Shown here one piece after another: positions 4,736 to 44,745 of a stretch of DNA of 64,000 bases. The notes beneath the pieces were generated by a model. The model was not told where the DNA came from. It made no database searches and saw only the letters and a list, made by a program, of their open reading frames with translations. A program made the position numbers and the translations under genes. Within the stretch, counting starts at the first letter, position 1. Each line of letters begins with the position of its first letter. This stretch comes from Bacteroidia bacterium (lineage in GTDB: Bacteria > Bacteroidota > Bacteroidia > B-17B0 > Aurantibacillaceae). The stretch covers positions 62,001-126,000 of the forward strand of contig JAEUTP010000007.1 of the NCBI GenBank assembly GCA_016787705.1, given 5' to 3'.

Positions 4736-4774
4736 TTTATTCTTCTTTATAGATATAACGTATTAAAGTTGTTA

Positions 4775-7042: not shown

Positions 7043-7111
7043 AATAATTTACCGTAAGGCTGTAGGGTAATTAAAAATAAAAATACAATATATTTAAGCA
7101 AATCCCATAAA

Positions 7112-7138
7112 AAAAGCCATCCTGTTAAGATGGCTTTT
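7112..7138 (-). terminator. Terminator downstream of the DUF5606 gene
   Basis: AAAAGCCATC/GATGGCTTTT, a 10-bp stem with a 7-nt loop, flanked by A-runs and T-runs, 20 bp past the stop at 7158. Confidence 0.85.
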
Positions 7139-7157
7139 ATAAATATTTCGAAAACTA

Positions 7158-7700
7158 TTAAGCAGTGCCGGTTTTTCTTACACCGGTTGTTTTTTTAACA
7201 CCTGCAACAGCTTTTGCTTTACCTGTATCTTTAGTGTTTGTTTTTTTAACTGCTGCTTTTTTATCTTCAGCTTTAATTGCTTTAGCTTTATCGTCGCCTT
7301 CGCCTTCAGCACCTTTTTCTTTAAGATTACCTGTAGTTTGAAGCGCATTATACCAGCTAAATAATTTTTTCATATTGCTTACGTAAACACGGTCTTTATC
7401 ATAATCAGGTAATATCTCACCAAAGTATTTTTCTACAGCCTTATCATCTGCTTTGTTATCAATGGTAGCGCCACCTTTTTCTTTTTCAAAAATGGAAGTC
7501 ATGATCTCTTCAATAGGTTTATCATCACCGGTAGTAAACATGCTGATATCCGATAAAGTTGAAACTTTAGTAGAGGCATAAACATTCACTCTTTTTTTAT
7601 CCGATAAACCTTCTACGATAATACCGTTCTTGCTTTGAGCCACAATTTTAAACAATCCCGGCTGTCCTGAAATGGAAATAATTCCTGTTAAATCGATCAT
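7158..7700 (-). CDS. DUF5606 domain protein with basic tail
   Basis: A 180-residue cytoplasmic protein. The first ~130 residues match the Bacteroidota-specific DUF5606 family (opens MIDLTGIISISGQPGLFKIV, then SKNGIIVEGLSDKKRVNVYA and the ISMFTTGDDKPIEEIMTSI segment). The C-terminal ~50 residues are a low-complexity Lys/Ala/Thr tail (KAEDKKAAVKKTNTKD) that could contact nucleic acid, although this is an inference from charge only. The family is widely conserved but has no established function. A TATATTTG promoter element lies 25 bp upstream. The neighbours (secreted proteins; an MtfA-like peptidase on the other strand) give no functional hint. Confidence 0.85.
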   Translation of the reverse strand: MIDLTGIISISGQPGLFKIVAQSKNGIIVEGLSDKKRVNVYASTKVSTLSDISMFTTGDDKPIEEIMTSIFEKEKGGATIDNKADDKAVEKYFGEILPDYDKDRVYVSNMKKLFSWYNALQTTGNLKEKGAEGEGDDKAKAIKAEDKKAAVKKTNTKDTGKAKAVAGVKKTTGVRKTGTA

Positions 7701-7724
7701 ACACTTTTAATTTTATTCTATTAG

Positions 7725-7732
7725 CAAATATA
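7725..7732 (-). promoter_or_regulatory. -7 element TATATTTG of the DUF5606 gene
   Basis: Exact TAnnTTTG match on the minus strand, 24 bp upstream of the start codon at 7700. Confidence 0.6.
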
Positions 7733-7787
7733 AGTTTTTAATTAAAAATAAAAACCTTTTTTTTGTAAAAAATCCTCATATAAATTG

Positions 7788-8975
7788 ATGCCACAAGCGG
7801 ATATTGAATTGAAAGAAAGTAGCTTACACTATTTTTATTCAGAGTATTTTGCTTATTATACCACCCTTAACAGCCAGTGGCAGCAAGTGTTTGTGGAAAG
7901 ATGCCTTAAATTTATTGAAAAAAAGACCATTATTGGCGCCGAGGGGTTTAAACCGGATAACCGGGTAAAAGCCATTATTGCCGCCTGTGCTGTACAGTTA
8001 ACAATCGGACTAACAAGCTGGGATCTTGACTATTTTGAAACAATTATTGTGCATCCCGGCGATTTTGATGATAAGGCCTCGGGCCTTAAATTCAGAGGTG
8101 AAACAAACTTGCAGGGCTTTATTCGCCTTAGCTGGAAAGGTTTTTTAAGAGGATATAAGATAAGCGATGATAACATTAATCTTGGCCTGCATGAGTTTGC
8201 ACATGCTTTGCGTATTAACGATGTAAAAAGCTTTTACCAGGATTATTTTTTTGACCATTTTTTTAGCCGCTGGCTGGCAGCAGCCATGGAGGCCTTTTAC
8301 AACATAAGAAACAATAAACAAACACTTTTTAGAAAATATGGCGGTACAAATATTAACGAGTTTATTAGCGTGTGTATAGAACATTATTTTGAATCACCAC
8401 TTGAAATAAAAAAAGAATATCCATACCTGTATTATTGCACCGCTATTTTATTAAATCAACAAACTACTAATAAAATCACTGAAGTAAATGTGCGCAAACG
8501 TTTATTGAATGAGCTAAATGCTTTGCAACAAGGCTTTACCGCGAAGATCATAAAGAGTAATGCATTAAGAACAAATTCTTTTCCTATAGTAATGGTTATT
8601 TTAGTGCCATTTTTACTTACTGCGTTTGTTACCGGTTTATTTAGTGGCGGTAGTATCTTTTTTGAGATGTTAATAGCAATTATTTATCTGCGTTTTGATT
8701 ACCGCTATACAAAAATACACGTTCACAAGCAGGGGTTTACTATTAGCAAGGGCTTTTTTATTTTTAAGAACCGTAGTAAGTATAGTTTTCCTACCTCTAA
8801 CCTTGTAAGTTTAAGAATGTACAACAGGGGAAAGGAAAAGCAAGATTGGGAAGTGATTTTTTATAACTCTAATAACGATCATTTTTACGAAGAAACCATT
8901 CTCGAATATAAGCCACTTGATACGGTGTTTGTAGCCGAGATATATAAAAACAAGATTGCTTATTTTACTTCCTGA
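7788..8975 (+). CDS. MtfA-like zinc metallopeptidase with C-terminal membrane domain
   Basis: A 395-residue protein whose first ~260 residues belong to the MtfA (M90) zinc peptidase family. The metal site HEFAH is at residues 135-139, and the downstream Glu-bearing segment FISVCIEHYFESP fits the family's third ligand region. E. coli MtfA is about 265 residues; this version adds ~130. The extra part has two hydrophobic segments (VMVILVPFLLTAFVTGLF and MLIAIIYLRF) followed by a beta-rich cytosolic domain (GFTISKGFFIFKNRSKYSFP), suggesting a membrane-anchored peptidase. I chose the ATG at 7788 over the TTG one codon earlier. MtfA in enterobacteria acts on the repressor Mlc; no such partner is visible here, so the substrate is unknown. 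Confidence 0.85.
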   Translation: MPQADIELKESSLHYFYSEYFAYYTTLNSQWQQVFVERCLKFIEKKTIIGAEGFKPDNRVKAIIAACAVQLTIGLTSWDLDYFETIIVHPGDFDDKASGLKFRGETNLQGFIRLSWKGFLRGYKISDDNINLGLHEFAHALRINDVKSFYQDYFFDHFFSRWLAAAMEAFYNIRNNKQTLFRKYGGTNINEFISVCIEHYFESPLEIKKEYPYLYYCTAILLNQQTTNKITEVNVRKRLLNELNALQQGFTAKIIKSNALRTNSFPIVMVILVPFLLTAFVTGLFSGGSIFFEMLIAIIYLRFDYRYTKIHVHKQGFTISKGFFIFKNRSKYSFPTSNLVSLRMYNRGKEKQDWEVIFYNSNNDHFYEETILEYKPLDTVFVAEIYKNKIAYFTS

Positions 8976-9071
8976 GGATTACAAAAGCCCTGAAAACTTT
9001 AAAACCGTTATTCTTATCGTGCTGTTTTTGTAAATTATTATTTCTACTTTAGTAGCTATAATTTTTTAACT

Positions 9072-10364
9072 ATGAAATACCAGGCTATTGACAGCAGTTT
9101 ATTTATTGGGAACAGAAATAAATTTAAAAATAATTTAAAACCAAATTCACTTGCCATATTTGTAAGCAACGATATTATGCCTACCAATGCAGATGGTAGT
9201 ATGGGGTTTAGACAAAATAGCGACCTGTTTTATTTAACAGGAATTGACCAGGAAGAAACTATTTTAGTTGTTTTTCCGGATGTAAAGGATGGAAAACATA
9301 AAGAGATATTATTTGTAAAAGAAACAAGTGAGTTAATTGCCATTTGGGAAGGCGCAAAATTAAACAAGCAACAAGCTACTGCGGCAAGTGGTGTTGATCA
9401 TATTTACTGGTATCATGAATTTGATAAGGTAATGAAGCCCTTTTTCTTTCAGGCAGAACATATTTATTTAAATTCTAATGAGCATACACGTAATAGTAAT
9501 TTAGTAGAGACTGGCGAAGCACGCTTTAATAAAATTATTCTTGCAAAATATCCATTACATAAATTTGAACGCAGTGCGCCTATTATGCAAAAGATACGTG
9601 CTATTAAAAGCACGCAGGAAATTGAATTGATACAACAGGCCTGCGATATTACCGAAAAAGGATTTCGCCGTTTGTTATCGTTTATTAAACCCGGTATATG
9701 GGAGCATGAAATTGAAGCAGAATTAATTCACGAATTTATTCGTAACCGTTCGCAGGGTTTTGCTTACGGCCCAATTGTTGCAAGCGGAAAGAATGCCTGC
9801 GTGTTACATTATGTTGAGAACAATATGCAGTGTAAAGATGGCGATGTTATTTTATTAGATGTGGCCGCTGAGTATGCTAACTACGCAAGTGATCTAACAC
9901 GTTGTGTGCCCGTGAACGGTAAATTCACAAAACGCCAGAAGGAAGTTTATAATGCCGTATTGCGTGTACATAAAGCTGCAGCAAAAATGTTATTGCCCGG
10001 TCAAACCTTTGAAAAATACAATAAGGCTGTTGGTGATATGATGACAGAAGAATTATTACAATTAGGTTTAATAAAAGCCGAAGATGTAAAAAAACAAAAT
10101 CCTTCATGGCCGGCGTATAAAAAATATTTTATGCATGGAACTTCTCATTTTTTAGGATTAGACGTGCATGATGTTGGTTTCTTTACAGAGCCGATGCAAG
10201 CCGGTATGGTATTTACCGTTGAGCCGGGCATTTATATTCCTGAAGAAGGTTTAGGCATTCGTATTGAGAATAATTTAATGATCACTACAACCGGCCAGTT
10301 AGACCTGATGAAGAATATACCTATTGAAGCCGATGAGATAGAAGCTCTAATGGCGAAGAAATAA
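9072..10364 (+). CDS. pepP: Xaa-Pro aminopeptidase (M24B)
   Basis: Removes an N-terminal residue when proline is second, using two metal ions. The 430-residue protein has the N-terminal creatinase-like domain (residues 1-170, with the aminopeptidase P signature DLFYLTGIDQEETILV) and a pita-bread C-terminal domain. All five metal ligands are present: Asp263 (LLDVAAEY), Asp274 (SDLTR), His359 (GTSHFLGLDVHD), Glu384 (TVEPGIYIP) and Glu399 (GIRIEN). There is no signal peptide, so it is cytoplasmic. A strong terminator follows directly, so it is probably monocistronic. Confidence 0.95.
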   Translation: MKYQAIDSSLFIGNRNKFKNNLKPNSLAIFVSNDIMPTNADGSMGFRQNSDLFYLTGIDQEETILVVFPDVKDGKHKEILFVKETSELIAIWEGAKLNKQQATAASGVDHIYWYHEFDKVMKPFFFQAEHIYLNSNEHTRNSNLVETGEARFNKIILAKYPLHKFERSAPIMQKIRAIKSTQEIELIQQACDITEKGFRRLLSFIKPGIWEHEIEAELIHEFIRNRSQGFAYGPIVASGKNACVLHYVENNMQCKDGDVILLDVAAEYANYASDLTRCVPVNGKFTKRQKEVYNAVLRVHKAAAKMLLPGQTFEKYNKAVGDMMTEELLQLGLIKAEDVKKQNPSWPAYKKYFMHGTSHFLGLDVHDVGFFTEPMQAGMVFTVEPGIYIPEEGLGIRIENNLMITTTGQLDLMKNIPIEADEIEALMAKK

Positions 10365-10381
10365 TTTACCATATTTAAAAC

Positions 10382-10415
10382 AAAAAAGCCGCAGAATTTT
10401 TTCTGCGGCTTTTTT
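10382..10415 (+). terminator. Strong terminator of pepP
   Basis: AAAAAAGCCGCAGAA/TTCTGCGGCTTTTTT, a 15-bp perfect stem with a TTTT loop and a following T-run, 18 bp after the stop codon. The A-run on the left makes it potentially bidirectional. Confidence 0.95.
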
Positions 10416-10457
10416 GTTTTAGAAATTTTACTTTTAATCTTCCGCTAATTTAAATTG

Positions 10458-10615
10458 CGCCACGAATTACACAAGTTTTCACTGATTGTAATAGGTTGTA
10501 AACTATTTAATTAGTGTAATTTATCGTTCAAGCGGTATCGCTTGAACAATTATTTCACCAAACAAATTGCCTATTGCGCGCGAATAGTATAGTGTTATAT
10601 AGTGAAATTAGTGGC
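10458..10615. repeat. Intergenic inverted-repeat element (copy 1 of 6)
   Basis: The left end reads GCCACGAATTACACAAG and the right end GTGAAATTAGTGGC, inverted relatives of the ends seen at 18523-18676 and in the four units at 46007-46528. Inside is a perfect 9-bp hairpin, GTTCAAGCG/CGCTTGAAC (10526-10547). It fills most of the gap between pepP and the channel gene; no ORF is seen. Confidence 0.7.
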
Positions 10616-10633
10616 TAAACATTTTCGTAATTT

Positions 10634-12538
10634 TTAATCTTCAGCTAAAACAATTATAAAATCACTTTCTTTAAAGGTTAATTTTGATGCTTTGTTTGGA
10701 TTGATGTTTACACCAAAATGTTTTTCAGAATCGGTACTTTGAGAAGATATCCTGTAACCAATAACCGATTCACCTAATTGTGCGGCGCTTTCAACAACCG
10801 TATAAAAGTTTACAGGTTGGCCTGGTTTTACATATTTGCTAACCGGTTTTAAATATACTTCAGAACCTTCGGCCTGGAATAATACATCGTAAACTTTTTT
10901 AAGATCAGGATTTTCACTTAGCTGACTTAACATTAAGCTTACTAAATTATCGCTCACAATAAAATCATCTGCTTTGGCAACAACACCTAATTCGCGGTTG
11001 CGGATATCTAACATTTCAGATACAATGCTAAAATCTTTTCCGGCTTTTTCACTTAAGTTACGCAAGTGTAATAAGCAGATCAATGTTTTTGCATCACTCT
11101 CCTGCGTATCAATATCAGTATAACTTAATAAAATAATATGGTCAAACGATTCAGGTTTTAAACCTACAAGCGTAGCTTTATCATTAATGTTGCCTTTTTG
11201 TAATTTTATTTTTTGTTTATCGAGCGTTTTTTGTAATTCATTAATTTCATCTTCTATATCCATTCCATCCTCAACAATCAGCACTTCCGATCCTTTTGCA
11301 ACATAGTTATCCAACTCTTCGATAATTCTTAAGCCCCTCGCGTTCCAGCCAAGTATCAATGTTTTTTCAACACTTGCTGTTTTCATTTCACTTCTGCTAA
11401 ATAAACTTTCATGGATATCAAAAGTAGTTTTACCACTTAATACAACGGTATCATCATCCTCTGAAATAGCAATAACTTTATCTCCTTTATTAATAATGGT
11501 ATCCATTGGTGGATTGATCAAAGCAGAACCATCTTTTGTAAATAAACCAACAACTGATGAGGTTTCGTAAGCAAGCAATGCATCTTTGTATGTTTTGCCA
11601 AATAACTTTGGTTCTTCCTGAAAATACAATTCATCACCTTCAAACTGCAATAACTCACTGTAAACAATACTTAAGCCAGATTGGCGACAAGTTTGCGCCG
11701 TGATGCGGGAAATAAGATCCGACGACATAACAAAAACCGTTTCATCATTACCAACCAGTTCTGCAGCCTCCATATTTTTTGGATCTTTTATTTCTGCAAC
11801 AATTGAATAAGGACTCTCTTTCCTGTTTTTGCCATTAGTTAAAGCTAAAACAGATTTAATTACGTAGGTATCTGCATTATCTTCAGTGCCTGCCAATACA
11901 ATAATAGAGCGGGCTTCGTTTGGATTTACAAGTGAAATATTTGTTGATTCAAGCGGACTGCCACTTCTAACAATTAATTTTGTGTTCTTAAAATCTTCTA
12001 TCTTACCACGTATCTCATCTTCCATTTCTCCTTTATCACGATCGGCTAAAATAACAATACTTGGTTTTTTTTGATTCTCATTTGCTTCAATGATCTCTGA
12101 AATGATAGAAAAAACTTTTTCACTCCAACCTAAAATTAAAGTATGATTGCTCTCTAAAACACGGGAGCGTCCTTTTTTTAACTCATCCAGTTTTTCGTCA
12201 ATACCAGATGAAATGGTACCAATTAAAATTGAGATCAAAAAGATACCGCCTAAAGTTGCTACAAAGCGAACCGCACGAAACGCCCAGCCTTCATCACCAC
12301 CCATCGTTCCTGAATCTAAGGTGGCCATTAAACTTTGCCAGGCCCCTTCAATAAAACCTAAATTTTCAGCATCAGGCTCAGGCGAGCTCTTAATACCAAA
12401 TACAAGGATCAGTAATCCTAATATCAATACCATAAATAAAGAAAAAATGGCCAGCCATTTAATTACACCGGCCGGACCGGCTGACATGGTATTTTCAAAG
12501 TAATACCTTGTTCTTTCGCGAAATGATGGTTTATTCAT
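10634..12538 (-). CDS. CASTOR/POLLUX-like ion channel with two RCK-type domains
   Basis: A 634-residue membrane protein related to the CASTOR/POLLUX/SYM8 channels. It has a first transmembrane helix near residues 25-48 (IKWLAIFSLFMVLILGLLILV), a pore-loop-like segment around SLMATLDSGTMGGDEGW, and a second helix near 90-110 (ATLGGIFLISILIGTISSGI). The cytoplasmic part holds two Rossmann-fold TrkA-N-like modules, one beginning HTLILGWSEKVFSII, the other KTLILGWNARGLRII, each with a trailing RCK-C-like region. It should gate monovalent or divalent cation flow in response to nucleotide or ion binding. The ion is not evident from the filter. It lies directly downstream of the DPP4 gene, 43 bp apart and on the same strand, but functional coupling is not obvious. 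Confidence 0.85.
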   Translation of the reverse strand: MNKPSFRERTRYYFENTMSAGPAGVIKWLAIFSLFMVLILGLLILVFGIKSSPEPDAENLGFIEGAWQSLMATLDSGTMGGDEGWAFRAVRFVATLGGIFLISILIGTISSGIDEKLDELKKGRSRVLESNHTLILGWSEKVFSIISEIIEANENQKKPSIVILADRDKGEMEDEIRGKIEDFKNTKLIVRSGSPLESTNISLVNPNEARSIIVLAGTEDNADTYVIKSVLALTNGKNRKESPYSIVAEIKDPKNMEAAELVGNDETVFVMSSDLISRITAQTCRQSGLSIVYSELLQFEGDELYFQEEPKLFGKTYKDALLAYETSSVVGLFTKDGSALINPPMDTIINKGDKVIAISEDDDTVVLSGKTTFDIHESLFSRSEMKTASVEKTLILGWNARGLRIIEELDNYVAKGSEVLIVEDGMDIEDEINELQKTLDKQKIKLQKGNINDKATLVGLKPESFDHIILLSYTDIDTQESDAKTLICLLHLRNLSEKAGKDFSIVSEMLDIRNRELGVVAKADDFIVSDNLVSLMLSQLSENPDLKKVYDVLFQAEGSEVYLKPVSKYVKPGQPVNFYTVVESAAQLGESVIGYRISSQSTDSEKHFGVNINPNKASKLTFKESDFIIVLAED

Positions 12539-30132: not shown

Positions 30133-30252
30133 CGGTGTTTTGGTGAATTGAACGAGTTTTTCTGTATTTTACAATATAGCCATGGTGCAAACGTGCCTGT
30201 GAGGAGCTGAAAGGGGAAGATTTGTTAAAAAGGCTTATTTTATAACTATTGG

Positions 30253-30326
30253 TATAGGATATCCTAACTGTTACTATAGGACATCCTAACCGTAACATAA
30301 CTGTAAGGTAACACTTGCCTAACTGT
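30253..30326. promoter_or_regulatory. Phased TAACYGT array with a 22-bp tandem repeat
   Basis: Two 22-bp tandem units (30253-30274, 30275-30296; 19 of 22 identical), each containing TATAGGATATCCTAAC-like sequence. The core TAACYGT occurs at 30265, 30287, 30298 and 30320, so the spacings are 22, 11 and 22 bp, whole helical turns. It lies about 140-200 bp upstream of the ABC-F start. This is consistent with cooperative binding of a regulator, but no protein is identified. The remaining part of 30119-30576 holds no gene. Confidence 0.5.
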
Positions 30327-30576
30327 ATCACAGACTATGCACAATCGCTATTTCTATGTGGCGGGTATTAACAGTGCGGAGATAGTGAATTAGCCCGACA
30401 AATTGAAATAATGAGAAATTTTTATCAAATAATCTTTAACCGGCTTTTTATGTTTGTTGCTTGTTACAAAGCCAAGCGTAAATAAAAATTAATTGCTACT
30501 GTAAATATGTAAGTGGCTATAAAACATATTGAGTAGATTAACCCATTTTAGACAAAGCACCGTTAATTGCCTTTTT

Positions 30577-34953: not shown

Positions 34954-37155
34954 TTATTGTTTGATGAACTTTTTAATAGTTGTGCCATTTCCGCTTTCAA
35001 CTTGTATAAAATAAACCCCACCCGGTAAATTACTTATTTGCAATGTTGTGTTACTTAAAATGTCTTTTTTAATTAATATAATTTCGCCAACTGTATTAAC
35101 AACATAAATGGTAATATTATCCATCCTTTCGCTTGCAGAAAAATCAATACTAATAAAATCATTAGCCGGATTAGGATACACGGATATAAAATTATTATTA
35201 ATTGCTTCTTCAATGCCTGTGCAAGTACTTACGCTTTGAGTAATGGTGGCTGCTGTTACCGGGCACCCAATATTAGCACCAACAATTGTATAGGTGGTAT
35301 TAGTGGTAGGTGAAATAACTACCGATGTTGAGAAAGGAACGCTGTTCAAAGAAAAATTAGTAGCTCCGCTTGCCGTTATGGTTGCCTGTTGACCAACACA
35401 TAATAAGTTGTTACTTGTAGCCAGCGTAATTGTGGGAATAGAGCTTACAGTTAAATTTAATACAGTTTGTGGGGAAACGCCACAACCGCTATTATTAGTT
35501 AAGTAATAGCTATAAACGCCTGCAGGAGTAAAGGGATTATTAGTATTGTATGAGGTTCCATTAGCCAAAACGGTTGTAGAAGTTGAAGAAGCGTACCATT
35601 TAATGCCGCCACCTACTGAGCTGGCAGTCATGATATAATAGTCGCCATCGCAAATTGCTGTTAATGTATTGGTAACCACTGGCGAGGCTACCACCGTGCT
35701 TGTGCAGGGAGCATAATTAATTAAAAAGCCATTACTATTCGAATTGCCTGCATAATAGTTCTGTATAACACCAGGGCTAGGATCTAAATTTCCGGTCCAA
35801 GAAAAAACGCCGGAAATTAAATATTCATTAAACTCGTTTACTAATAAATTGTTTATGGATGCTGACGATAAGCCACCTCCAAAAGTACGTGTATAATCAA
35901 ATACGCCCGTTCCAATCATTTTTGTAAAAAAGGTTCCATAGGCACTGGCACCAAAGGTAATGGTGTTGGTTCCTACAGGGTTTGTATTACAGGTGCCTAG
36001 TGCATTTCCTGAAATTATTAAATTATTAAATTGGTCTAACGAAATATCCGTTACATTATCATCATTGGCCCCTCCTAATTTAAACCCGGCGGTTAAACTT
36101 CCGGTTGCGGGATTGATGCTTAGATAAAAAATGTCATTCATAGTTCCAAGTAAACTATTATTTGTTACAACATAGCCACCATTATAAAATATGTCTAAAT
36201 CAGTAAAAGTGCCTGCAATAATTAAATTTCCACCTGGAATTAAAAGACTTTTTGTTGCTGAAGTGCCGTACGTTGGTCCGCCAAATTTTTTAGCCCACTG
36301 TAATGTACCTACCTGATTATATTTTACTACAAAACCATCCGCCCCGCTCGCTGCTGCTATAGTAAATGTTGATGCAGACGGATCCATGTCGGGAGTGCCA
36401 TAATAAGAACCTGAAACAATTACATTACTGCTGCCGTCACAAACAATTGTATTGCCATATTGATCGCTAGTACCTGTATTAGCCCAGGCAGTAAAAAAAG
36501 AACCTGTAGTTGCGTTTAATCTCCAAACATACATATCAGCATTGGTTGCTGTAAGATTATATGCCGTTGGGCTTGGGTCAAAATCAAAAGTACCATTAAA
36601 GTAACCTGTAACGAATACACAATTAGTGGCCGGATCAAAAGCAATATCATTAGCAACATCATTTCCGGTGTTGCCAATTTTTTGATGCCACTGATAAACA
36701 CCATTCGAATCTAATTTAATTACAACACCATCTGTTGTTGATGATGTGCCGCTGTTGTTTACGTTTACAGTACCAGTACCCGGATCCACATCAATAGCAC
36801 CATTATAATTACCAACTAAGTAAACCGATTTATTATTGTCTAAAATTAACCTGTTAACCGTTAAAGGGCCATTAAATGCGTATGCCCACAGCAATTGCTG
36901 TGATGTTGTAATTCTTCGAATATAAACCGAACCGGGTACAGTTGTGGATGCAACACTTGGATTAATATCAACCGGTGTTGTTTGCCCACCACAAACAAAA
37001 ATAGTGTTTTTTGAAACTGCCATTTTTGAACTAGAGCTTGCTGAAGTGTTTATTCCTATTTTTTCAATAGTTTTGGCATAATAGTTTTGTGCAAGCAACG
37101 CTCCGTTAATGAATGTAAATAGCGCAAAACTTAATTTGTAAATAATTTTTTTCAT
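34954..37155 (-). CDS. T9SS-sorted surface protein with DxDPS repeats
   Basis: A 733-residue secreted protein: signal peptide (YKLSFALFTFINGALLAQ), then a beta-propeller-like domain with recurrent AIDVDPGT/TFDFDPSP/TPDMDPSA motifs about 50-60 residues apart, typical of Bacteroidota surface propellers. Residues ~490-640 include Ig-like regions (YYIMTASSVGGGIKWYASS, CVGQQATITASGATNF). The last ~80 residues are a T9SS type A domain (ISVYPNPANDFISIDFSA ... NLPGGVYFIQVESGNG). The promoter at 37178-37250 carries LytTR-like repeats, so expression is probably controlled by the neighbouring two-component locus. Ligand unknown; adhesion inferred. Confidence 0.88.
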   Translation of the reverse strand: MKKIIYKLSFALFTFINGALLAQNYYAKTIEKIGINTSASSSSKMAVSKNTIFVCGGQTTPVDINPSVASTTVPGSVYIRRITTSQQLLWAYAFNGPLTVNRLILDNNKSVYLVGNYNGAIDVDPGTGTVNVNNSGTSSTTDGVVIKLDSNGVYQWHQKIGNTGNDVANDIAFDPATNCVFVTGYFNGTFDFDPSPTAYNLTATNADMYVWRLNATTGSFFTAWANTGTSDQYGNTIVCDGSSNVIVSGSYYGTPDMDPSASTFTIAAASGADGFVVKYNQVGTLQWAKKFGGPTYGTSATKSLLIPGGNLIIAGTFTDLDIFYNGGYVVTNNSLLGTMNDIFYLSINPATGSLTAGFKLGGANDDNVTDISLDQFNNLIISGNALGTCNTNPVGTNTITFGASAYGTFFTKMIGTGVFDYTRTFGGGLSSASINNLLVNEFNEYLISGVFSWTGNLDPSPGVIQNYYAGNSNSNGFLINYAPCTSTVVASPVVTNTLTAICDGDYYIMTASSVGGGIKWYASSTSTTVLANGTSYNTNNPFTPAGVYSYYLTNNSGCGVSPQTVLNLTVSSIPTITLATSNNLLCVGQQATITASGATNFSLNSVPFSTSVVISPTTNTTYTIVGANIGCPVTAATITQSVSTCTGIEEAINNNFISVYPNPANDFISIDFSASERMDNITIYVVNTVGEIILIKKDILSNTTLQISNLPGGVYFIQVESGNGTTIKKFIKQ

Positions 37156-37177: not shown

Positions 37178-37250
37178 TGCAAATAAACAGCACTGAAGAA
37201 TCCTTGCCAAAACAACCTTGTGAAATGTAGATTTAACCTTGTGAAATGTA
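37178..37250 (-). promoter_or_regulatory. Composite LytTR-like promoter 1
   Basis: Half-sites at 37235-37250 and 37214-37229, each ACATTTCAC-AAGGTT on the minus strand, 21 bp apart. GTTTTGG follows directly, and a TATTTGCA -7 element lies at 37178-37185, 28 bp from the proximal repeat. The gene start is at 37155. Confidence 0.75.
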
Positions 37251-37296
37251 TTTTGCTCAGTTGCCACAGAATAATACAAAGAGATTATGCGCAAGA

Positions 37297-37326
37297 AAAG
37301 CCCCGCTAAGCTATTAGCGGGGCTTT
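37297..37326 (-). terminator. Terminator of the T9SS gene at 37366
   Basis: AAAGCCCCGCTAA/TTAGCGGGGCTTT, a 13-bp stem with a GCTA loop, 40 bp beyond the stop codon. Confidence 0.9.
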
Positions 37327-37365
37327 GCCAAACTGAGTATAAAAACAATGTACTTGTTATTAGAT

Positions 37366-39171
37366 TTATTGTTTAATAAATTTTTTAATAGCTGAACCAT
37401 TTTTACTTTCCATTTTTACAAAATAAATTCCGCTTTTTAAATTATCTATATTTAAAGTTGTGTTGGCGGCACTTGCTTTTTCAGTTACTATCGTTTCGCC
37501 TAATGCATTGATGATATAAAATGTTGTAGTATCAGCCGACTCAGTTATTAAACTAACAGTCATAAATTCATTAGCAGGGTTAGGATAAATGCTAATTGTA
37601 TTATTGTTATCAATTTCATTAATACCAACTGTGTTGCAATTACTAACTACTTGAGTGATAGTTCCGCTTGCAGAACAGCCTACGTTGTTTGTTACTGAAA
37701 GCGTATAAGTTGTAGTTACAGTAGGACTAATTAATAAGTTAGCCGAGTTGCTTCCACTACTCCAGGTGTATGTTACTACCGTTGGGCCACTATATCCTGC
37801 TAAATATAAATTTGTAGAGTTACCAACACACAAATTTGCAGTACCGCTATTAATAGTTGTAATTGTAGGTGAGGTAAGCACCGAAATGTAACAATTTACT
37901 GTGCCTATGCAACCCCCCGATGTTGTGCCCGTTATAGTATAGTTTGACGACGTTGTTGGCGTTACAACTGCACTGCCGCCACTAAACGTATATGTGCTTG
38001 CTCCACTTGGTGCAATAGTAAATGATTGACCCGAACAAATAGTTCCACTACTTACAGAAATACTTGCGGTGCAAACAGAAGTATTTAGGAAAACTGCCAT
38101 TCCATTATATTGGCTAACAGCTAAATCTATTTTAGTATCGTTATTAAAATTGCCTGCTATTAATCTTAAACCATTAGCACCAGGAATTGTGAAATTAACA
38201 CCTCCTGAAAAAGTTCCTAAACCATTGCCTTTTAAAACAGATACGTTATTAGAGTTCGTAACCGCTAAATCAATTTTAGTATCCCCATCAATATCTGCAC
38301 AAACTAACGATGTTGGTTGAGGAATAACATTGTAATTTATGGCAGTTGCAAAAGTACCAGTGCTGCTACCAAGCAAAATCGAAATATTATTTGAATCGTA
38401 ATTTGCAACTGCTAAATCCAGGTTACCATCTCCATTAAAATCGGCCGCTTTAACTGAGCGCGGCCCGAGCCCAGTTACATAATTTACCGGCGTACCAAAT
38501 GAACCGGTACCGTTACCAAATAAAACAGTTACCGAACCAGTTGTGGAAGTTCCCTTAGCAACAGCAATATCTTTATTGCCATCGTTATTAAAGTCGCCTG
38601 ACGTTAGGGCATAAGGAAATGACCCCACCGCAAAATTTGTAGATGTGCCAAAAGTTCCAGTTGTACTGCACAACGCTACAGTTATATTTGCACCATTATT
38701 ATTTGCTGTGGCTAAATCTGGCTTCCCATCATTATTAAAATCATCAGCTATCATATCCAACAAATTATTACCAGTTGCAAAAGCGCTATTGCTCACTGCT
38801 GTAAAAGTTCCTATACCTGTACCCCCTCTTGTTCTCACAGTATTAAAATTGTCAGTGTGCGCTAAATCCAGTTTTGCATCATTATCAAAATCGGCTACTG
38901 CCAAAACATATGGCTGAAATGCTAGCGCAGCCGAATTAAAAGAATTTGTAAACGTACCGGTACTGCTTCCTAAGAATGTTCCATAAGTACTAGTAAAGAC
39001 ATTGGATATTACAATATCTTTAAACCCATCACCATTAAAATCGCCGGACGCAAGATCGCTTGTATTTGTGCCGGTTCCATAATATTGAGTAGCAGGCTGA
39101 AAGTTAATTTGTGCTTTTAGGCCACATACCGATAATAAACAGGTTGCAGCTAATGTGTAAATTTTTTTCAT
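37366..39171 (-). CDS. FG-GAP/VCBS-repeat surface protein with T9SS sorting domain
   Basis: A 601-residue secreted protein. I chose the ATG at 39171 (MKKIYTLAATCLLSVCGLKAQ signal peptide), since the open frame before it to 39270 is not protein-like. About eight integrin-type FG-GAP/VCBS repeats follow, each with a calcium-binding DxNxDGxxD loop (SGDFNGDGFKDIVISN, ADFDNDAKLDLAHT, ADFNGDGNLDLAVANYD). A later Ig-like region and a T9SS domain (ISIYPNPANEFMTVSLI ... NLKSGIYFVKMESKNG) end the protein. Its promoter has the same LytTR-like repeats as its neighbours. Likely a calcium-dependent surface adhesin, by analogy. Confidence 0.88.
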   Translation of the reverse strand: MKKIYTLAATCLLSVCGLKAQINFQPATQYYGTGTNTSDLASGDFNGDGFKDIVISNVFTSTYGTFLGSSTGTFTNSFNSAALAFQPYVLAVADFDNDAKLDLAHTDNFNTVRTRGGTGIGTFTAVSNSAFATGNNLLDMIADDFNNDGKPDLATANNNGANITVALCSTTGTFGTSTNFAVGSFPYALTSGDFNNDGNKDIAVAKGTSTTGSVTVLFGNGTGSFGTPVNYVTGLGPRSVKAADFNGDGNLDLAVANYDSNNISILLGSSTGTFATAINYNVIPQPTSLVCADIDGDTKIDLAVTNSNNVSVLKGNGLGTFSGGVNFTIPGANGLRLIAGNFNNDTKIDLAVSQYNGMAVFLNTSVCTASISVSSGTICSGQSFTIAPSGASTYTFSGGSAVVTPTTSSNYTITGTTSGGCIGTVNCYISVLTSPTITTINSGTANLCVGNSTNLYLAGYSGPTVVTYTWSSGSNSANLLISPTVTTTYTLSVTNNVGCSASGTITQVVSNCNTVGINEIDNNNTISIYPNPANEFMTVSLITESADTTTFYIINALGETIVTEKASAANTTLNIDNLKSGIYFVKMESKNGSAIKKFIKQ

Positions 39172-39193
39172 GTTTATATTTTTAAAATTATGA

Positions 39194-39266
39194 TGCAAAG
39201 AAATGTCATTATAAAAAGCTCGCCAAAACAACCTTGTGAAAGGTATATTTAACCTTGTGAACTGTA
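39194..39266 (-). promoter_or_regulatory. Composite LytTR-like promoter 2
   Basis: Half-sites at 39251-39266 (ACAGTTCAC) and 39230-39245 (ACCTTTCAC), period 21 bp; GTTTTGGCGAG follows; -7-like TCTTTGCA at 39194-39201, 28 bp from the proximal site. The ATG follows at 39171. Confidence 0.75.
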
Positions 39267-39384
39267 ACAAAAAAACATTATAAATTAAAGAGGTTGAAAA
39301 GGCAAAGACTTAGTGTAAAATAAAAAACGCTGCTACGTGCCTGGCGAGGCTGATATAAAAGGCAATTGAACTAAAGTGTAATTA

Positions 39385-40011
39385 TTATTCCAGTTCAACA
39401 ATATCTCCGGTAACACCATCTACTTTATAATTGCCAAAAGCATTATCTGTAATATTGTTTTTAGTGAATTGGGAGTAACAATAAAACGTTAATTTATTTG
39501 ATATTTTCACCAAACAATCAGTATTTGTTTTTCCTTTTGGTTGTGTAAAGATAACAGGTGTTTCGTCTTGTATTGTAAAAACACTTTTTTGTGATACTAC
39601 ACTTTTTGCATGGTTGTGATAAATAAGAAGCAGAATATCATTGTCAATCGAATTATCCTCATTAGAATATTCAATACAACAAATAACTCCACGCATTAGC
39701 TCATTAATACCAATATCATATTTAGCCCATACTTTAATTGAATTAATTATTTTTCCGTTTTTATTTTTACCCACCTGGTAACCTGTAAGATCTTTCCAAA
39801 AGAAAACTGGCACGTTTTGCCAGGAATCAACATCTGTGGTTCTAAGGCCATGTTTTTTTTCAATTTTTATTTCACCTGCAAATCGTCCGTCCTTTAAACT
39901 CTCAATGTATTTGTGTAATGAGTCGGATTTGGATTGCGCAACTAGTATTCCATTAAAAACGAAAATAGAAAGGTATAATACTAGAATCAGTTTTAAATTA
40001 TATTTATTCAT
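39385..40011 (-). CDS. Secreted protein of unknown function
   Basis: A 208-residue protein with a signal peptide (LILVLYLSIFVFNGILVAQ). The mature region is mixed alpha/beta with no recognised domain; it includes FWKDLTGYQVGKNKNGKIIN and a paired ICCIEYSN stretch. Unlike its neighbours it lacks the composite LytTR promoter, and it has its own start region downstream of a strong terminator. Its T9SS domain is absent, so it is probably periplasmic. The remainder of 39272-39384 is a short gap with no gene. Confidence 0.65.
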   Translation of the reverse strand: MNKYNLKLILVLYLSIFVFNGILVAQSKSDSLHKYIESLKDGRFAGEIKIEKKHGLRTTDVDSWQNVPVFFWKDLTGYQVGKNKNGKIINSIKVWAKYDIGINELMRGVICCIEYSNEDNSIDNDILLLIYHNHAKSVVSQKSVFTIQDETPVIFTQPKGKTNTDCLVKISNKLTFYCYSQFTKNNITDNAFGNYKVDGVTGDIVELE

Positions 40012-40084
40012 TACTTTCGGTTTTCAATGAAGTCAATAATTACTATAAGCATTTTTCGACACTCCGTTTTATACTTAAATATCA

Positions 40085-40120
40085 AAACAACCATTCTGCA
40101 ATTTTGCAGAATGGTTGTTT
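40085..40120 (-). terminator. Long terminator of the 331-residue gene
   Basis: AAACAACCATTCTGCAA/TTGCAGAATGGTTGTTT, a 17-bp perfect stem with a 2-nt loop, 20 bp past the stop at 40139. It effectively insulates the genes on either side. Confidence 0.85.
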
Positions 40121-40138
40121 AAGATTATAACCATTTAA

Positions 40139-41134
40139 TTACTTTAAAACATCTTTATACTGCATTGCATTTTCTTTTGTAATACGCCCCAGGTACATAG
40201 TACCTGTAGCTTTTAGCTCTCCATTAAATTTACTTCCATCCCATACATCAAATGCGTGTTCTTCTTCTATGGTAATACACGTGTGGTTATATATTCCATT
40301 TTTTATATTTTCTTCGGTTTGGTAAATACAAATTGCAAATATTCTTCTTTTGGTAATAAAGTCATCATAAGTTCCGTTAACGGTCTTCTTTTCTTTAATC
40401 ATTTTCCATTCATTTGTAGGGCTAATGGCTTTTAGCATATCAGGAATTCCAAAATAGCAATATGCAATTTTATCATTACCAACGCGTGTTTGGCACAACT
40501 CCTGAAGTTTGGCTTGATTGCAGGGATTTGTTTTAGTAGGCGCTGGTAATTTAACATTAGCTGTTGCGGCATCTTGTTTCTTTTTCTCTTCTGCATTTTT
40601 AGCGTCATCAACATCCTTTACTGCTTTTATAAAATCAGCTACTGCAACTTCCAGCTTCTTGTAATTTTCACACTTATCATCTTTTTGAATTTCTTTAATA
40701 AATTCTTTGTTCGATGAAAACACCTCTATTAGATTTAAAAATTGCATTTCGCAAGCCTGGCCCTGGAAATATAGCTTTAAAAACACGCCATCTTGTATTT
40801 TAATAATGGAATTGTGACAATCACCATCATTAAAAACAGGTAATTTCATGCCGGGTATTTCAATTTTTTTAAACGTTCTATCAGGATCTCCTCCATATTT
40901 TGATGTGCCTTTTGTAGCTAAATTATTTTCATCTATTACCGAAAATTTTTCGGTAATAAGAACCTCTTTTGCTTTTTCTTTTTTGCCAATATTTTCATAG
41001 TAAAAATAATAGGCTCCTTTTGGTGTTGCAGCATTTTCAAGCTTTTCTTTCATTTTGGCAAATGCACCCTGCGCACTTAAATTTGCACTTAAACTTACTA
41101 TAGCTATTGATGCTATTAAACATAATTTTTTCAT
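40139..41134 (-). CDS. Secreted protein of unknown function under LytTR-like promoter
   Basis: A 331-residue protein with a signal peptide (CLIASIAIVSLSANLSAQ). Two mixed alpha/beta regions, an N-terminal one with YYFYYENIGKKEKAKEV and a C-terminal one with FDVWDGSKFNGELKATGTM, are joined by a Lys/Ala-rich stretch (AKNAEEKKKQDAATAN). There are four Cys in short-spaced positions (for example ECEMQF, CNQAKLQELC), so disulphides in the periplasm are likely. No T9SS domain. Its promoter has LytTR-like repeats identical in layout to those of the two T9SS genes, so it likely belongs to the same regulon. Function unknown. Confidence 0.7.
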   Translation of the reverse strand: MKKLCLIASIAIVSLSANLSAQGAFAKMKEKLENAATPKGAYYFYYENIGKKEKAKEVLITEKFSVIDENNLATKGTSKYGGDPDRTFKKIEIPGMKLPVFNDGDCHNSIIKIQDGVFLKLYFQGQACEMQFLNLIEVFSSNKEFIKEIQKDDKCENYKKLEVAVADFIKAVKDVDDAKNAEEKKKQDAATANVKLPAPTKTNPCNQAKLQELCQTRVGNDKIAYCYFGIPDMLKAISPTNEWKMIKEKKTVNGTYDDFITKRRIFAICIYQTEENIKNGIYNHTCITIEEEHAFDVWDGSKFNGELKATGTMYLGRITKENAMQYKDVLK

Positions 41135-41158
41135 AAATACTTTTTTAGATTAATATGC

Positions 41159-41231
41159 TGCAAATAAAAAGCAATAAAAAAGTCTCGCCAAAACAACTTT
41201 GTGAAATGTATATTTAACCTTGTGAAATGTA
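41159..41231 (-). promoter_or_regulatory. Composite LytTR-like promoter 3
   Basis: Half-sites at 41216-41231 and 41195-41210 (both ACATTTCAC), period 21; GTTTTGGCGAG follows; TATTTGCA at 41159-41166, 28 bp from the proximal repeat. The ATG at 41134 follows after about 20 nt of leader. Confidence 0.8.
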
Positions 41232-41272
41232 ATTTGTAACTATAAGAAACAAAGGTCCACGAACTTTCAAAA

Positions 41273-41602
41273 TCACAAAACCACTTTTTCAAATTCCGAT
41301 TTTAAATTTCGAGATACAGGAATCGGTTCTTTAATGTTTTTTAAATACAATAATAAATCAGATTTAATATAACGTTCAACATAATTTGTATTTATGACAT
41401 ATGAACGGTGTGGCTTAAAAAAAAGCTTAGCAGGTAATTTTTCTAAAATATCTTTTAAAGTATTTGAAGCCAAAATACATTGCCCGTTAGCTAAATACAC
41501 GGTACAATAAATATTTTCGGCCTTTAATAAAACAATATCTGACATTAAAATAAAAACTATTTCGCGGCCTATCTTAAAAGCAATTTGATGTAATTTTTGC
41601 AT
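41273..41602 (-). CDS. LytTR-only DNA-binding protein (no receiver domain)
   Basis: A 109-residue protein that is essentially one LytTR domain: IVFILMSDIVLLKAENIYC, the loop LASNTLKDILEKL, and the recognition segment FFKPHRSYVINTNYVERY. I chose the ATG at 41602 over a TTG at 41611. It has no receiver, kinase or membrane segment, so its activity must be set by amount or by ligand or partner binding. Its own promoter carries the same repeats as the three secreted genes, so it is probably autoregulated. It is divergent from the histidine kinase gene, with which it shares this control region. Confidence 0.9.
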   Translation of the reverse strand: MQKLHQIAFKIGREIVFILMSDIVLLKAENIYCTVYLANGQCILASNTLKDILEKLPAKLFFKPHRSYVINTNYVERYIKSDLLLYLKNIKEPIPVSRNLKSEFEKVVL

Positions 41603-41606
41603 AAGC

Positions 41607-41679
41607 TGCAAAACACAAAATAAAACACTTCAAAACAAAAAATAACTTGTCAAATGTGGTTTTAAACTTGTGAAATGTT
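41607..41679 (-). promoter_or_regulatory. Composite LytTR-like promoter 4 (autoregulatory)
   Basis: Half-sites at 41664-41679 (ACATTTCAC) and 41643-41658 (ACATTTGAC), period 21; GTTTTGCA at 41607-41614, 28 bp from the proximal repeat. The predicted start lies only ~1-3 nt before the ATG at 41602. The repeats also end 30 bp before the kinase ATG at 41709 on the other strand, so they may control both genes. Confidence 0.75.
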
Positions 41680-41708: not shown

Positions 41709-44015
41709 ATGCAGCTCAGGCTTTTTTTACTTACTTATTTTTTCATTGGGTCCTCATTTATTAATGCACAGTTTAACCAACACGATAGCTTAGTTTCTGT
41801 TTATAATAAAACGAAGGTTAAAGATACCAGTGTTTGTAAGCTACTCTCAGCTATTATAGAGAGCGCTCAGGATTATGAGATCATGAAACCATATTTAGCT
41901 GCTTATCGTGAAATTGTATTTAAACATATTACCTATAATAATTACAAGCAAGACGATAAAAAACCATTTGTAAATTATTTTATAAACTATCATTACGAAT
42001 GCGGCTATGTTTATGGACAGATAGATCAATTGGATAGTACAATTTTTTATTTAAAATTAACTGAAAAATATTGCGAGGAGTTTAACGAAGTTTCAATTGC
42101 CGCAAATAACTATACAGGGTATATGGGTTACTACTATGCTGTTGGCGATGCAAAAAAATCGTTGCAATACGCAACTAAAGCAGTAAAGTTCTATTTAAAA
42201 GATAAGAACTTAGAAAACGCCGCAACTACAGCAAGGAGCATAGGGGTGATATTGGAGATGCAGGGTAAAAGTAAAGAGGCTTTGCAAATTTATAAAGTGT
42301 TAGAAAAATATTATTTAGTAAAAAAGAGAGATGTGGATATGGGCGACATCTACTATTGTTTAGCAGGAGTATATAAAACGCTCTCGCAGTATAATATATC
42401 ATTAAATTATATGCTAAGATCTACAGAGTTTAGAGTTAAGGTAAAGGATGAAAGAAATTTGGCCCGAAATTATGATGGAATAGCTGTTTTGATGGAATAT
42501 GGTGATAGGTATACCGAAGCAATACCTTACTACTCAAAGGCAATTTCATTAAATAAAAAACTAAATGCAAAATATAGTTTGGCTGGCAATTATAATAAGC
42601 TAACACGCTGTTTGATGAAAGCAAACCCGGATTATAAAAATAATTTAAAAAAGATAGATAAGTATGAAGCATTTTTTAAGTATGCACTAAAACTTTCCAA
42701 CGAATCAGAAGTTCCTTTACAGCAAGCCTATTCTTTAGCATCCCTGGGCGGATTAATGTTAACCAAGTCTGATTTAAATAAAGGTGAAAAACAAAAACAC
42801 TTATTAGAAGCTGAAATTTACCTTAAAAAAGCCGAAGCAATTCAAATTAGTCACGATTTAAAGTCAGAATATGTGGTTTTGTGTAATTACTTAATAGATT
42901 TATATGAACGTAATAATAATAACAATTTAGTTGAATATTATGCCAACAAAAAATTATCATTGGCAAAAGATATAGATAATTTATATGAGATAAAACAAGC
43001 AGCCATAGTTTTAAAGGAGTTTTACTTATCGCAAAATAATTCTAAAAAAGCATTTGAAATGGCTGAATTAGTTATTTCAGCTAATGAAAGTATAAAAGAG
43101 GAGAATATAAAAAATGACTATTTAAAAACAGAATTTAACTACGAAACCGAAAAAAAAGAAGCTGCTATTAAGGATCTCGAACATCAAAACAAAATAGCTT
43201 CCTTACAAGCTAAACAAAAGACCATTGTATTATATAGCATCATTGGTTTAGCAATAACTATAGCATTAATTACTTACTTTTTATTTACCAGGTTTAAAAC
43301 AAAAAAGCAAAACGAATTATTAAAAACAAAATTAGAAGACGCTGAGTTACTGTTAATAGAAAAACAAAAGGCAGCTGACAGCGAAATTAAAGCCATTAAG
43401 AGCCAGATGAATCCTCATTTTTTTTATAACGCCCTTAATTCAATACAAGGTTATATTTATAGTGGCGACAAAGAAAATGCCGCTAAATCGCTTGGATTGT
43501 TTAGTGATTTGAGCCGTTCGGTTTTAGAAAGCAGCCGCAATACCGAAATTAGTTTATATGATGAAATCGAATTACTGGAAAATTATTTGAAACTGGAAAA
43601 CATGCGTTTGCCAAAAATAAAATACACTATCAATGCTTCTGATAACATTAATTTACATGACGTTTATATACCGGCAATGATACTACAGCCATTGGTTGAA
43701 AACGCTGTTAAGCATGGTTTAGCTAATAAACAGGGCGAGGGAGTTTTAAATATAAAGTTTGAAGAAAACAACAACAAATTATTTATATACATTGAAGATG
43801 ATGGCATAGGCCGTGCTGCAGCAGCAGAAATAGGAAAGCGGATGATTAAAAAATCGGCATCGTTTAGCACTGAAGCAAACATCAGCCGTATTGAATTATT
43901 AAATGCCAATAAAACCGAAAAAATAACTCAAGATATTATTGATAAAAAGGACAAAGAAGGCAATGCTGCCGGAACTATTGTTAAACTTGTAATACCGATT
44001 GAACTGTATGATTAA
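41709..44015 (+). CDS. TPR-containing membrane histidine kinase (YesM/LytS type)
   Basis: A 768-residue kinase. I chose ATG 41709, where a signal peptide begins (LFLLTYFFIGSSFINAQ), over the GTG at 41670. The periplasmic part holds repeated TPR pairs (residues ~120-450, e.g. GDIYYCLAGVYKTLSQYNIS). A transmembrane helix (IVLYSIIGLAITIALITYF, ~505-525) leads to a coiled linker and the His_kinase domain with phospho-acceptor His570 in SQMNPHFFYNALNSIQG, N-box PLVENAVKHGL and G-box EDDGIG. Such kinases pair with LytTR response regulators. Start of the response-regulator gene overlaps the stop. Its signal is unknown. Confidence 0.92.
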   Translation: MQLRLFLLTYFFIGSSFINAQFNQHDSLVSVYNKTKVKDTSVCKLLSAIIESAQDYEIMKPYLAAYREIVFKHITYNNYKQDDKKPFVNYFINYHYECGYVYGQIDQLDSTIFYLKLTEKYCEEFNEVSIAANNYTGYMGYYYAVGDAKKSLQYATKAVKFYLKDKNLENAATTARSIGVILEMQGKSKEALQIYKVLEKYYLVKKRDVDMGDIYYCLAGVYKTLSQYNISLNYMLRSTEFRVKVKDERNLARNYDGIAVLMEYGDRYTEAIPYYSKAISLNKKLNAKYSLAGNYNKLTRCLMKANPDYKNNLKKIDKYEAFFKYALKLSNESEVPLQQAYSLASLGGLMLTKSDLNKGEKQKHLLEAEIYLKKAEAIQISHDLKSEYVVLCNYLIDLYERNNNNNLVEYYANKKLSLAKDIDNLYEIKQAAIVLKEFYLSQNNSKKAFEMAELVISANESIKEENIKNDYLKTEFNYETEKKEAAIKDLEHQNKIASLQAKQKTIVLYSIIGLAITIALITYFLFTRFKTKKQNELLKTKLEDAELLLIEKQKAADSEIKAIKSQMNPHFFYNALNSIQGYIYSGDKENAAKSLGLFSDLSRSVLESSRNTEISLYDEIELLENYLKLENMRLPKIKYTINASDNINLHDVYIPAMILQPLVENAVKHGLANKQGEGVLNIKFEENNNKLFIYIEDDGIGRAAAAEIGKRMIKKSASFSTEANISRIELLNANKTEKITQDIIDKKDKEGNAAGTIVKLVIPIELYD

Positions 44016-44745
44016 ATGTGTTATTATTGAAGATGAGCCACAGGCTGTTACTTTACTTAAAAACATTATAGCATCTAAATTTCCACACATTGAGGTACTA
44101 GCTGATTTTGATAAAATTAGCGTGGCTTCAAAATTTATTAAAGAACATAAACCAGATTTTGTTTTTTTAGATGTTCAATTAAATGGTGAGTTAGGAATTG
44201 ATATTGCCAACCATTTAACCAAAGAAGAACTTGATTTTGAAATTATATTTACAACAGCTTATGGTGGGTTTGCGTTAGAAGCCTTTGCATTAAGCGCTGT
44301 TGATTATATACTCAAACCAATTAACGAAATTCGTTTAATTGAAGCGGTAACCCGAGTCTTGAAAAAACATCACGTGTCGCTTGAACAATTAAAAATTTTA
44401 CAGGAAGTTTCAACGACTGATAAAATTGAAAAAATAGTTTTATCAATGAATGAAAAAAAAATAATTGTGAACGTAAAGGATATTGTTTTTTTAAAGGCAG
44501 ATAATGTGTATACTGAATTTTATTTAAGCAATGCTGTAAAGTATGTTGTGTCAAAACCATTAAAGGAATACGAGCTGTTGCTAAGTCAAACAAACTTTTA
44601 TAAGCCTCACCGCTCATACATCATTAATAAAAATGCGATTAAAGCCTATCAAAAAGTAAATGCTGAAATTGAAATGAGTAATGGACAATATGTTAGTCTT
44701 TCAAGAGACAAGAAAAAAGAGTTTGAGGAATTACTATTAAGATAA
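44008..44745 (+). CDS. LytTR response regulator
   Basis: A 245-residue regulator with an N-terminal receiver domain and C-terminal LytTR domain. The phospho-acceptor is Asp55 in PDFVFLDVQLNG; acidic pocket EDE at 8-10, switch residues in FTTAYGG and the Lys in LKPI are present. The LytTR part runs from about 145 (KIIVNVKDIVFLKADNVY) to FYKPHRSYIINKNAI and the C-terminus. I chose ATG 44008; it overlaps the kinase stop by 8 nt, so translation is coupled. It probably binds the same type of 9-bp direct repeats as the LytTR-only protein. Confidence 0.95.
   Translation: MIKCVIIEDEPQAVTLLKNIIASKFPHIEVLADFDKISVASKFIKEHKPDFVFLDVQLNGELGIDIANHLTKEELDFEIIFTTAYGGFALEAFALSAVDYILKPINEIRLIEAVTRVLKKHHVSLEQLKILQEVSTTDKIEKIVLSMNEKKIIVNVKDIVFLKADNVYTEFYLSNAVKYVVSKPLKEYELLLSQTNFYKPHRSYIINKNAIKAYQKVNAEIEMSNGQYVSLSRDKKKEFEELLLR

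Follow-up and report, generated by a model that had tools for sequence, protein, structure and literature searches.

Upstream of four minus-strand genes of an uncultured Bacteroidia bacterium, one composite DNA element recurs, in which a pair of LytTR-type direct repeats stands at a fixed distance from a Bacteroidota promoter core. The stretch analysed, hereafter the window, is 64,000 nucleotides long (G000:C20:62001-126000) and comes from a genome of 4,515,664 bases in 28 contigs, G000. The element adjoins the genes of a histidine kinase, a response regulator (RR) with a LytTR DNA-binding domain and a receiverless LytTR protein, hereafter LytTR-only. We read it as the operator-promoter of a self-contained two-component cassette, whose RR would activate the adjacent genes for secreted proteins. 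Judged from sequence comparison, we give this reading a probability of about 80%.

Each of the four promoters, labelled A-D, contains two ACATTTCACAAGGTT-like half-sites with a period of 21 bp. No gap is needed to align the four 81-bp promoters, so the distance from the repeat to the -7 box is identical in all, with TTTG at +66 in 4/4, counted from the first base of the 9-mer ACATTTCAC. The first-pass annotation had described paired half-sites before these four genes and 28 bp between the 16-bp proximal half-site and TATTTGCA; all its coordinates were reproduced and the distance is exact. The sequence GTTTTGGCRAG, which it placed directly after the repeat in three promoters, is found there, with TTTTTTG instead in the promoter of the LytTR-only gene. 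The 9-mers lie 12 bp apart in 4/4 window sites and in 20/20 cassette sites (below), and, as annotated, ACATTTCAC agrees with 6/8 defined positions of [TA][AC][CA]GTTN[AG][TG], in a class of sites that has no common consensus (PMC4847170). A two-block pattern allowing up to 3 mismatches matches three times in the window and never in 100 shuffles.

The element is confined to this cassette. The repeat pattern has four matches in the genome, which are the four promoters, and none elsewhere in 4.5 Mb. A profile built from the four window promoters (R1) finds them at E ≤ 1.9e-17, with the next match at 0.075. Scattered genome-wide matches, which the first-pass annotation had named as refuting its proposal, were thus not seen. 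Because the genome encodes 27 LytTR domain proteins, confinement to one cassette is informative: the element adjoins only the RR at 44008-44745. A dispersed genome-wide regulon in G000 was rejected, with only four sites, all in the cassette. The related genome G026 has two more sites on contigs other than that of its cassette (L094 9904 (+) and L095 1805 (+)). One precedes the gene of a 718-aa protein of the type IX secretion system (T9SS), the other that of a 475-aa protein; the regulon can thus extend outside the cassette.

Across genomes, the element travels with this RR. In 100 relatives, R1 gave strong clustered matches in G013 and G026, the same two of 40 same-genus genomes that have clear LytTR-only orthologues (51% and 48% identity); the next matches in the genus, at 41-43% or less, are in longer, RR-sized proteins. 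Profile R2, built from 14 sites in three genomes and run on 87 family genomes with a cut-off of E ≤ 1e-5, has matches in exactly 5/87, and orthologues of the RR (query P0004, E ≤ 1e-55) occur in 5/87, the same five. The chance of such a perfect match is 1/C(87,5) = 2.7e-8, or 2.9e-4 without the three model-building genomes. In the genome collection the RR orthologues show 58-83% identity and all other proteins 35% or less, a clear gap; some of the orthologue loci are assigned to Crocinitomicaceae and Sphingobacteriales. Among 80 RR-homologue loci, R2 matches at E < 1e-4 are confined to the orthologue loci. The layout was thus found in related genomes only where the same regulator is present, and this allows the target regulon to be assigned to its LytTR regulator from sequence. 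In G122, two RR-orthologue copies with kinase genes or fragments lie on different contigs (L130 C287, L132 C296).

The geometry is also preserved in sites selected on the half-sites alone, and not on the promoter. A scan of the 87 genomes for TTCACAAG-N13-TTCACAAG with at most 1 mismatch gave 20 matches in cassettes or at secreted-protein genes of the five genomes, with TTTG at +66 in 18 and at +65 in 2, both of the latter being LytTR-only promoters. TTTG was absent from +66/+65 in one further G026 match and in the 15 examined matches in cassette-free genomes, and its frequency at a given upstream position is approximately 0.011. In the cassette sites of other genomes the conserved columns are the half-sites, -33 and -7, while the spacer columns drift. 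Two RR-orthologue loci outside the family, L138 and L141, have retained sites in front of genes for secreted or T9SS proteins; a third, L140, has a single weak site (TTTG at +67), and the gene behind it encodes a T9SS-like tail.

These observations fit a simple scheme. The histidine kinase would phosphorylate the RR, and two RR molecules would occupy the two direct-repeat half-sites on one helix face, just upstream of -33. From there the RR would bring RNA polymerase to a promoter of the housekeeping type. The -7 box of this promoter keeps a constant distance from the repeat, and in most cases the TA of TAnnTTTG is missing from it. This would switch on the neighbouring genes for secreted proteins, most of them T9SS cargo, together with the LytTR-only gene; the LytTR-only protein probably recognises these sites too and provides feedback.

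The two LytTR proteins of the cassette are related. Among all paralogues tested, the LytTR-only proteins branch as sister to the LytTR domains of these RRs (support 97/95), so both derive from the same ancestral regulator; the receiver Asp and an HRS..IIN motif are conserved in three aligned RRs. In a two-step relay, LytTR-only would be the main binder, with the kinase and RR controlling only its synthesis. Consistent with this, its gene is part of the cassette in 5/5 family genomes, always directly behind its own site, and receiverless LytTR regulators are autoactivators in LytTR Regulatory Systems (LRS; PMC6193735). However, L138 and L141 keep the RR and the target-gene sites, and no LytTR-only gene was found in either locus, nor in the L141 genome, where the LytTR domains reaching 1e-10 are the RR and one unlinked RR-sized protein; such a gene could escape notice in incomplete metagenome-assembled genomes (MAGs). 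The retention of these sites makes the phosphorylatable RR the likelier binder and activator. LytTR-only orthologues also diverge faster (48-50% identity) than the RRs (65-82%), and we regard the relay as rather unlikely. The first-pass annotation had proposed a LytTR regulator as activator of the four genes; confinement and co-occurrence support this, and we would narrow the proposal to the receiver-bearing RR, the most parsimonious candidate, with LytTR-only possibly sharing the site.

The promoter core bears on the direction of control. The flavobacterial TAnnTTTG box covers -12 to -5 (PMC9723704), which places the transcription start near +74. The TTG of the -33 element lies approximately 20 bp before the -7 box and approximately 9 bp after the proximal 9-mer, a close fit to the approximately 10 bp of LytTR-regulated LRS promoters (PMC6193735). 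Only 1/20 cassette promoters have the TA of the -7 box, whereas in the gene-upstream regions of this genome TA precedes nnTTTG in 54/274 cases, more often than its dinucleotide frequency of 0.11 would predict; this difference, weak on its own (P=0.07), hints at promoters that need an activator beside -33. Repression, or antagonism between RR and LytTR-only, would be the opposite use of the same operator. AgrA represses some genes too (PMC4227749), and because the divergent kinase gene starts from the region that holds site D, binding there could also alter kinase expression. Yet in 20/20 sites the repeat is upstream of the core promoter, not over it, in one helical phase, and together with the TA-poor boxes this makes repression unlikely.

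Two further explanations dispense with a LytTR protein. Recognition of the repeats by another DNA-binding protein seems very unlikely, as 21-bp direct repeats beside -33/-35 are the LytTR hallmark, the half-site has the same core as the YpdB site, and it is the RR gene whose co-occurrence with the element has been shown. Recent duplication of a promoter and signal-peptide stretch along with T9SS genes, with no dedicated regulator, could account for the great similarity of promoters A, B and C and their first codons, T9SS genes being frequently tandem paralogues, but was rejected as scarcely credible, because sites in other genomes precede non-homologous genes and keep only the half-sites, -33 and -7 amid drifting spacers, and the element never occurs without an RR orthologue within the 87 family genomes.

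Several points weigh against activation by the RR. The element, its geometry, its confinement, its co-occurrence with the RR and the protein families are observed, while binding, activation, phosphotransfer and feedback are inferred from them, and where both RR and LytTR-only are present either could be the binder. The co-occurrence is based on few independent acquisitions or lineages, and the sampled relatives are mostly MAGs. Outside the family, the L141 sites are weak (best E 4.5e-7 in its genome), the L140 site is not above background in its genome, and the L141 kinase and RR (7131-10750) are frame-shifted in the complete-genome MAG record CP096135, probably through sequencing error.

The targets are largely surface proteins (Table 1). 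Domain annotation bears out the earlier assignment of two controlled genes with a T9SS sorting domain, one signal-peptide-like protein and one LytTR-only gene. The sorting domain PF18962 is present in 2/3 non-regulatory targets in the window and 12/19 over all cassettes; at an assumed 6% background (at least 150 PF18962 genes in this genome) the binomial P is approximately 7e-11, which is optimistic because tandem target genes are linked. Targets of other cassettes comprise T9SS cargo, orthologues of the 331-aa product of gene C and a 260-aa protein (G013, G026). The 331-aa orthologues, in the G013 and G122 cassettes, are 73-75% identical, and an AlphaFold2 model of the 331-aa protein, made with three sequences, has a mean predicted local distance difference test score of 53. 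Between the 331-aa and 208-aa genes lies a terminator-like strong inverted repeat with a T-rich stretch (AACCATTCTGCAAAATTGCAGAATGGTTGTTTT, 40085-40122 (-)).

Table 1 Features of the cassette in the window and corresponding positions in other loci.
Feature	Position	Strand	Details
Promoter A, LytTR-type direct repeat	37214..37249	-	Half-sites 37249-37235 and 37228-37214; starts 37249/37228
Promoter A, core	37180..37213	-	GTTTTGG (-33 region) 37213-37207; -7 box TTTATTTG 37187-37180; TTTG at +66
Promoter B, LytTR-type direct repeat	39230..39265	-	Half-site starts 39265/39244
Promoter B, core	39196..39229	-	GTTTTGG; -7 box TTTCTTTG 39203-39196; TTTG at +66
Promoter C, LytTR-type direct repeat	41195..41230	-	Half-site starts 41230/41209
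Promoter C, core	41161..41194	-	GTTTTGG; -7 box TTTATTTG 41168-41161; TTTG at +66
Promoter D, LytTR-type direct repeat	41643..41678	-	Half-site starts 41678/41657; between divergent LytTR-only and kinase genes
Promoter D, core	41609..41642	-	TTTTTTG (-33 region); -7 box TTTG at +66
Target gene A	34954..37155	-	733-aa secreted protein; T9SS C-terminal sorting domain (PF18962), Ig_7
Target gene B	37366..39171	-	601-aa FG-GAP repeat protein; T9SS sorting domain
Target gene C	40139..41134	-	331 aa; hydrophobic, signal-peptide-like N-terminus; no Pfam family
208-aa protein gene	39385..40011	-	Downstream of gene C, without own site; similar genes in G013 and G122 cassettes
LytTR-only regulator	41273..41602	-	Receiverless, 109 aa; sister clade of RR LytTR domain
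Histidine kinase	41709..44015	+	Tetratricopeptide repeats (TPR); one predicted membrane segment; His_kinase PF06580 (LytS/YpdA type)
Response regulator	44008..44745	+	Receiver and LytTR domains; likeliest binder of the repeats (predicted)
LytTR-only start/-7, window	41602-41616		
LytTR-only start/-7, L092	7071-7082		
LytTR-only start/-7, L093	9874-9884		
LytTR-only start/-7, L129	11654-11667		
LytTR-only start/-7, L130	2084-2097		
Cassette kinase, L092	5089-6855		
Cassette kinase, L129	8632-11529		
Cassette kinase, L130	2229-5123		
Cassette kinase, L138	7114-10008		
Cassette kinase, L140	14410-16251		

The start codon of the LytTR-only gene is 10-13 nt past the start of the -7 TTTG in 5/5 genomes (10 nt at promoter D of the window), so its predicted mRNA leader is only approximately 2-5 nt and the gene near-leaderless; predicted leaders of the target genes are approximately 15-36 nt. 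The kinases vary at the input end, with TPR kinases in G000, G013, G026 and L140 and propeller (Reg_prop) kinases in G113, G122 and L138. The sensor domain has thus been exchanged, TPR against two-component propeller, while RR and operator stay unchanged.

Similar geometry with other half-sites is found at other LytTR loci. Pairs spaced by 21 bp number 96 there, against 29-37 for other periods, approximately threefold, and TTTG stands at +66/+67 in 8 of the 96 against 1.4 expected; two of the eight are simple repeats, and P=0.003 without them. Within G000 itself, a sister cassette (L029, G000:C7:155000-165506, 3573-9630) combines an RR and a TPR-like kinase with a T9SS protein and two divergently encoded secreted proteins, of 399 aa and 170 aa. 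Its own repeat word, ACAGTTTATGAA, stands before the T9SS gene, where TTTA follows at the same distance from the proximal pair as in the window, and before a secreted-protein gene, where TTTG does so; the 331-aa and 399-aa proteins of the two cassettes have no significant similarity. The second receiverless LytTR gene of this genome (L025, 7618-7944 (-)) is divergent from an RR gene (8227-8988 (+)), and the scans used found no 21-bp repeat at that locus. In the window, repeats of approximately 22 bp (ATAGGATATCCTAACTGTTACT and variants) also occur at 30240-30330, on the N-terminal side of an ABC-F-type open reading frame.

Tentatively, these patterns suggest that Bacteroidota carry a family of portable, self-contained LytTR cassettes that differ in their half-site word but share one promoter geometry (45 bp from the proximal half-site start to the -7 TTTG), in which TPR and propeller sensors would be swapped, surface proteins reshuffled and a near-leaderless, receiverless copy of the RR DNA-binding domain used for feedback. 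If so, sequence could serve to decode many of the phylum's orphan LytTR regulators. LytTR regulators are numerous in Bacteroidota, as the 27 here illustrate, and this case yields operator, promoter geometry, targets and cognate regulator together from sequence, with confirmation from their co-occurrence across genomes. It supplies a recipe for other LytTR regulons, namely a 21-bp repeat with a -7 TTTG 45 bp after the proximal half-site start, and would connect individual cargo genes of type IX surface display with particular two-component inputs.

Our searches of the open literature, which leaves out most subscription journals, turned up no study in which the binding site or regulon of a Bacteroidota LytTR two-component regulator is defined. 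LytTR sites elsewhere consist of two repeats of 9-11 bp, 11-13 bp apart (PMC4847170), and the two half-sites here, 12 bp apart in 20/20 cases, have this form; they stand just upstream of -33/-35, with the -7 TTTG at +66 in 18 cases and at +65 in two. The cassette is most readily compared with YpdA/YpdB of Escherichia coli, which pairs a PF06580 kinase with a LytTR RR and has two direct repeats ahead of the promoter it controls; a PF06580 kinase and a LytTR-domain RR are present beside our sites. The yhjX site has an 11-bp spacer and a 21-bp period. The half-site resembles the AgrA-type consensus less closely than the YpdB half-site GGCATTTCAT of yhjX, with which it shares an identical CATTTCA core (PMC4847170). 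The YpdB system differs in its transporter target and sigma-70 promoter, as opposed to a TPR sensor, T9SS targets, a Bacteroidota -33/-7 core and a receiverless LytTR copy in the regulon. AgrA of Staphylococcus aureus (P2/P3; PMC4227749) similarly activates its own operon and other genes, but the half-site here misses 2/8 positions of its consensus and no quorum-sensing genes were seen beside the cassette.

The LRS HdrRM and BrsRM (PMC6193735) share with the cassette a receiverless LytTR regulator and direct repeats in its own promoter (here site D and the equivalent sites of four further genomes), with 12-bp spacing, approximately 10 bp upstream of -33/-35. Membership in this group was rejected: LRS are defined by a membrane inhibitor protein cotranscribed with the regulator, and no such gene follows LytTR-only, which is flanked instead by the 331-aa secreted-protein gene with its own promoter and by the kinase of the adjoining kinase-RR pair. 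LRS-like operons of Bacteroides have 11-bp repeats with 11-bp spacing and regulators with membrane segments (PMC6193735). PorXY-SigP of Porphyromonas gingivalis (PMC4800418, PMC5005315) is likewise a two-component system tied to type IX secretion, but it addresses machinery genes via an extracytoplasmic function (ECF) sigma factor, whereas here single cargo genes carry LytTR-type sites.
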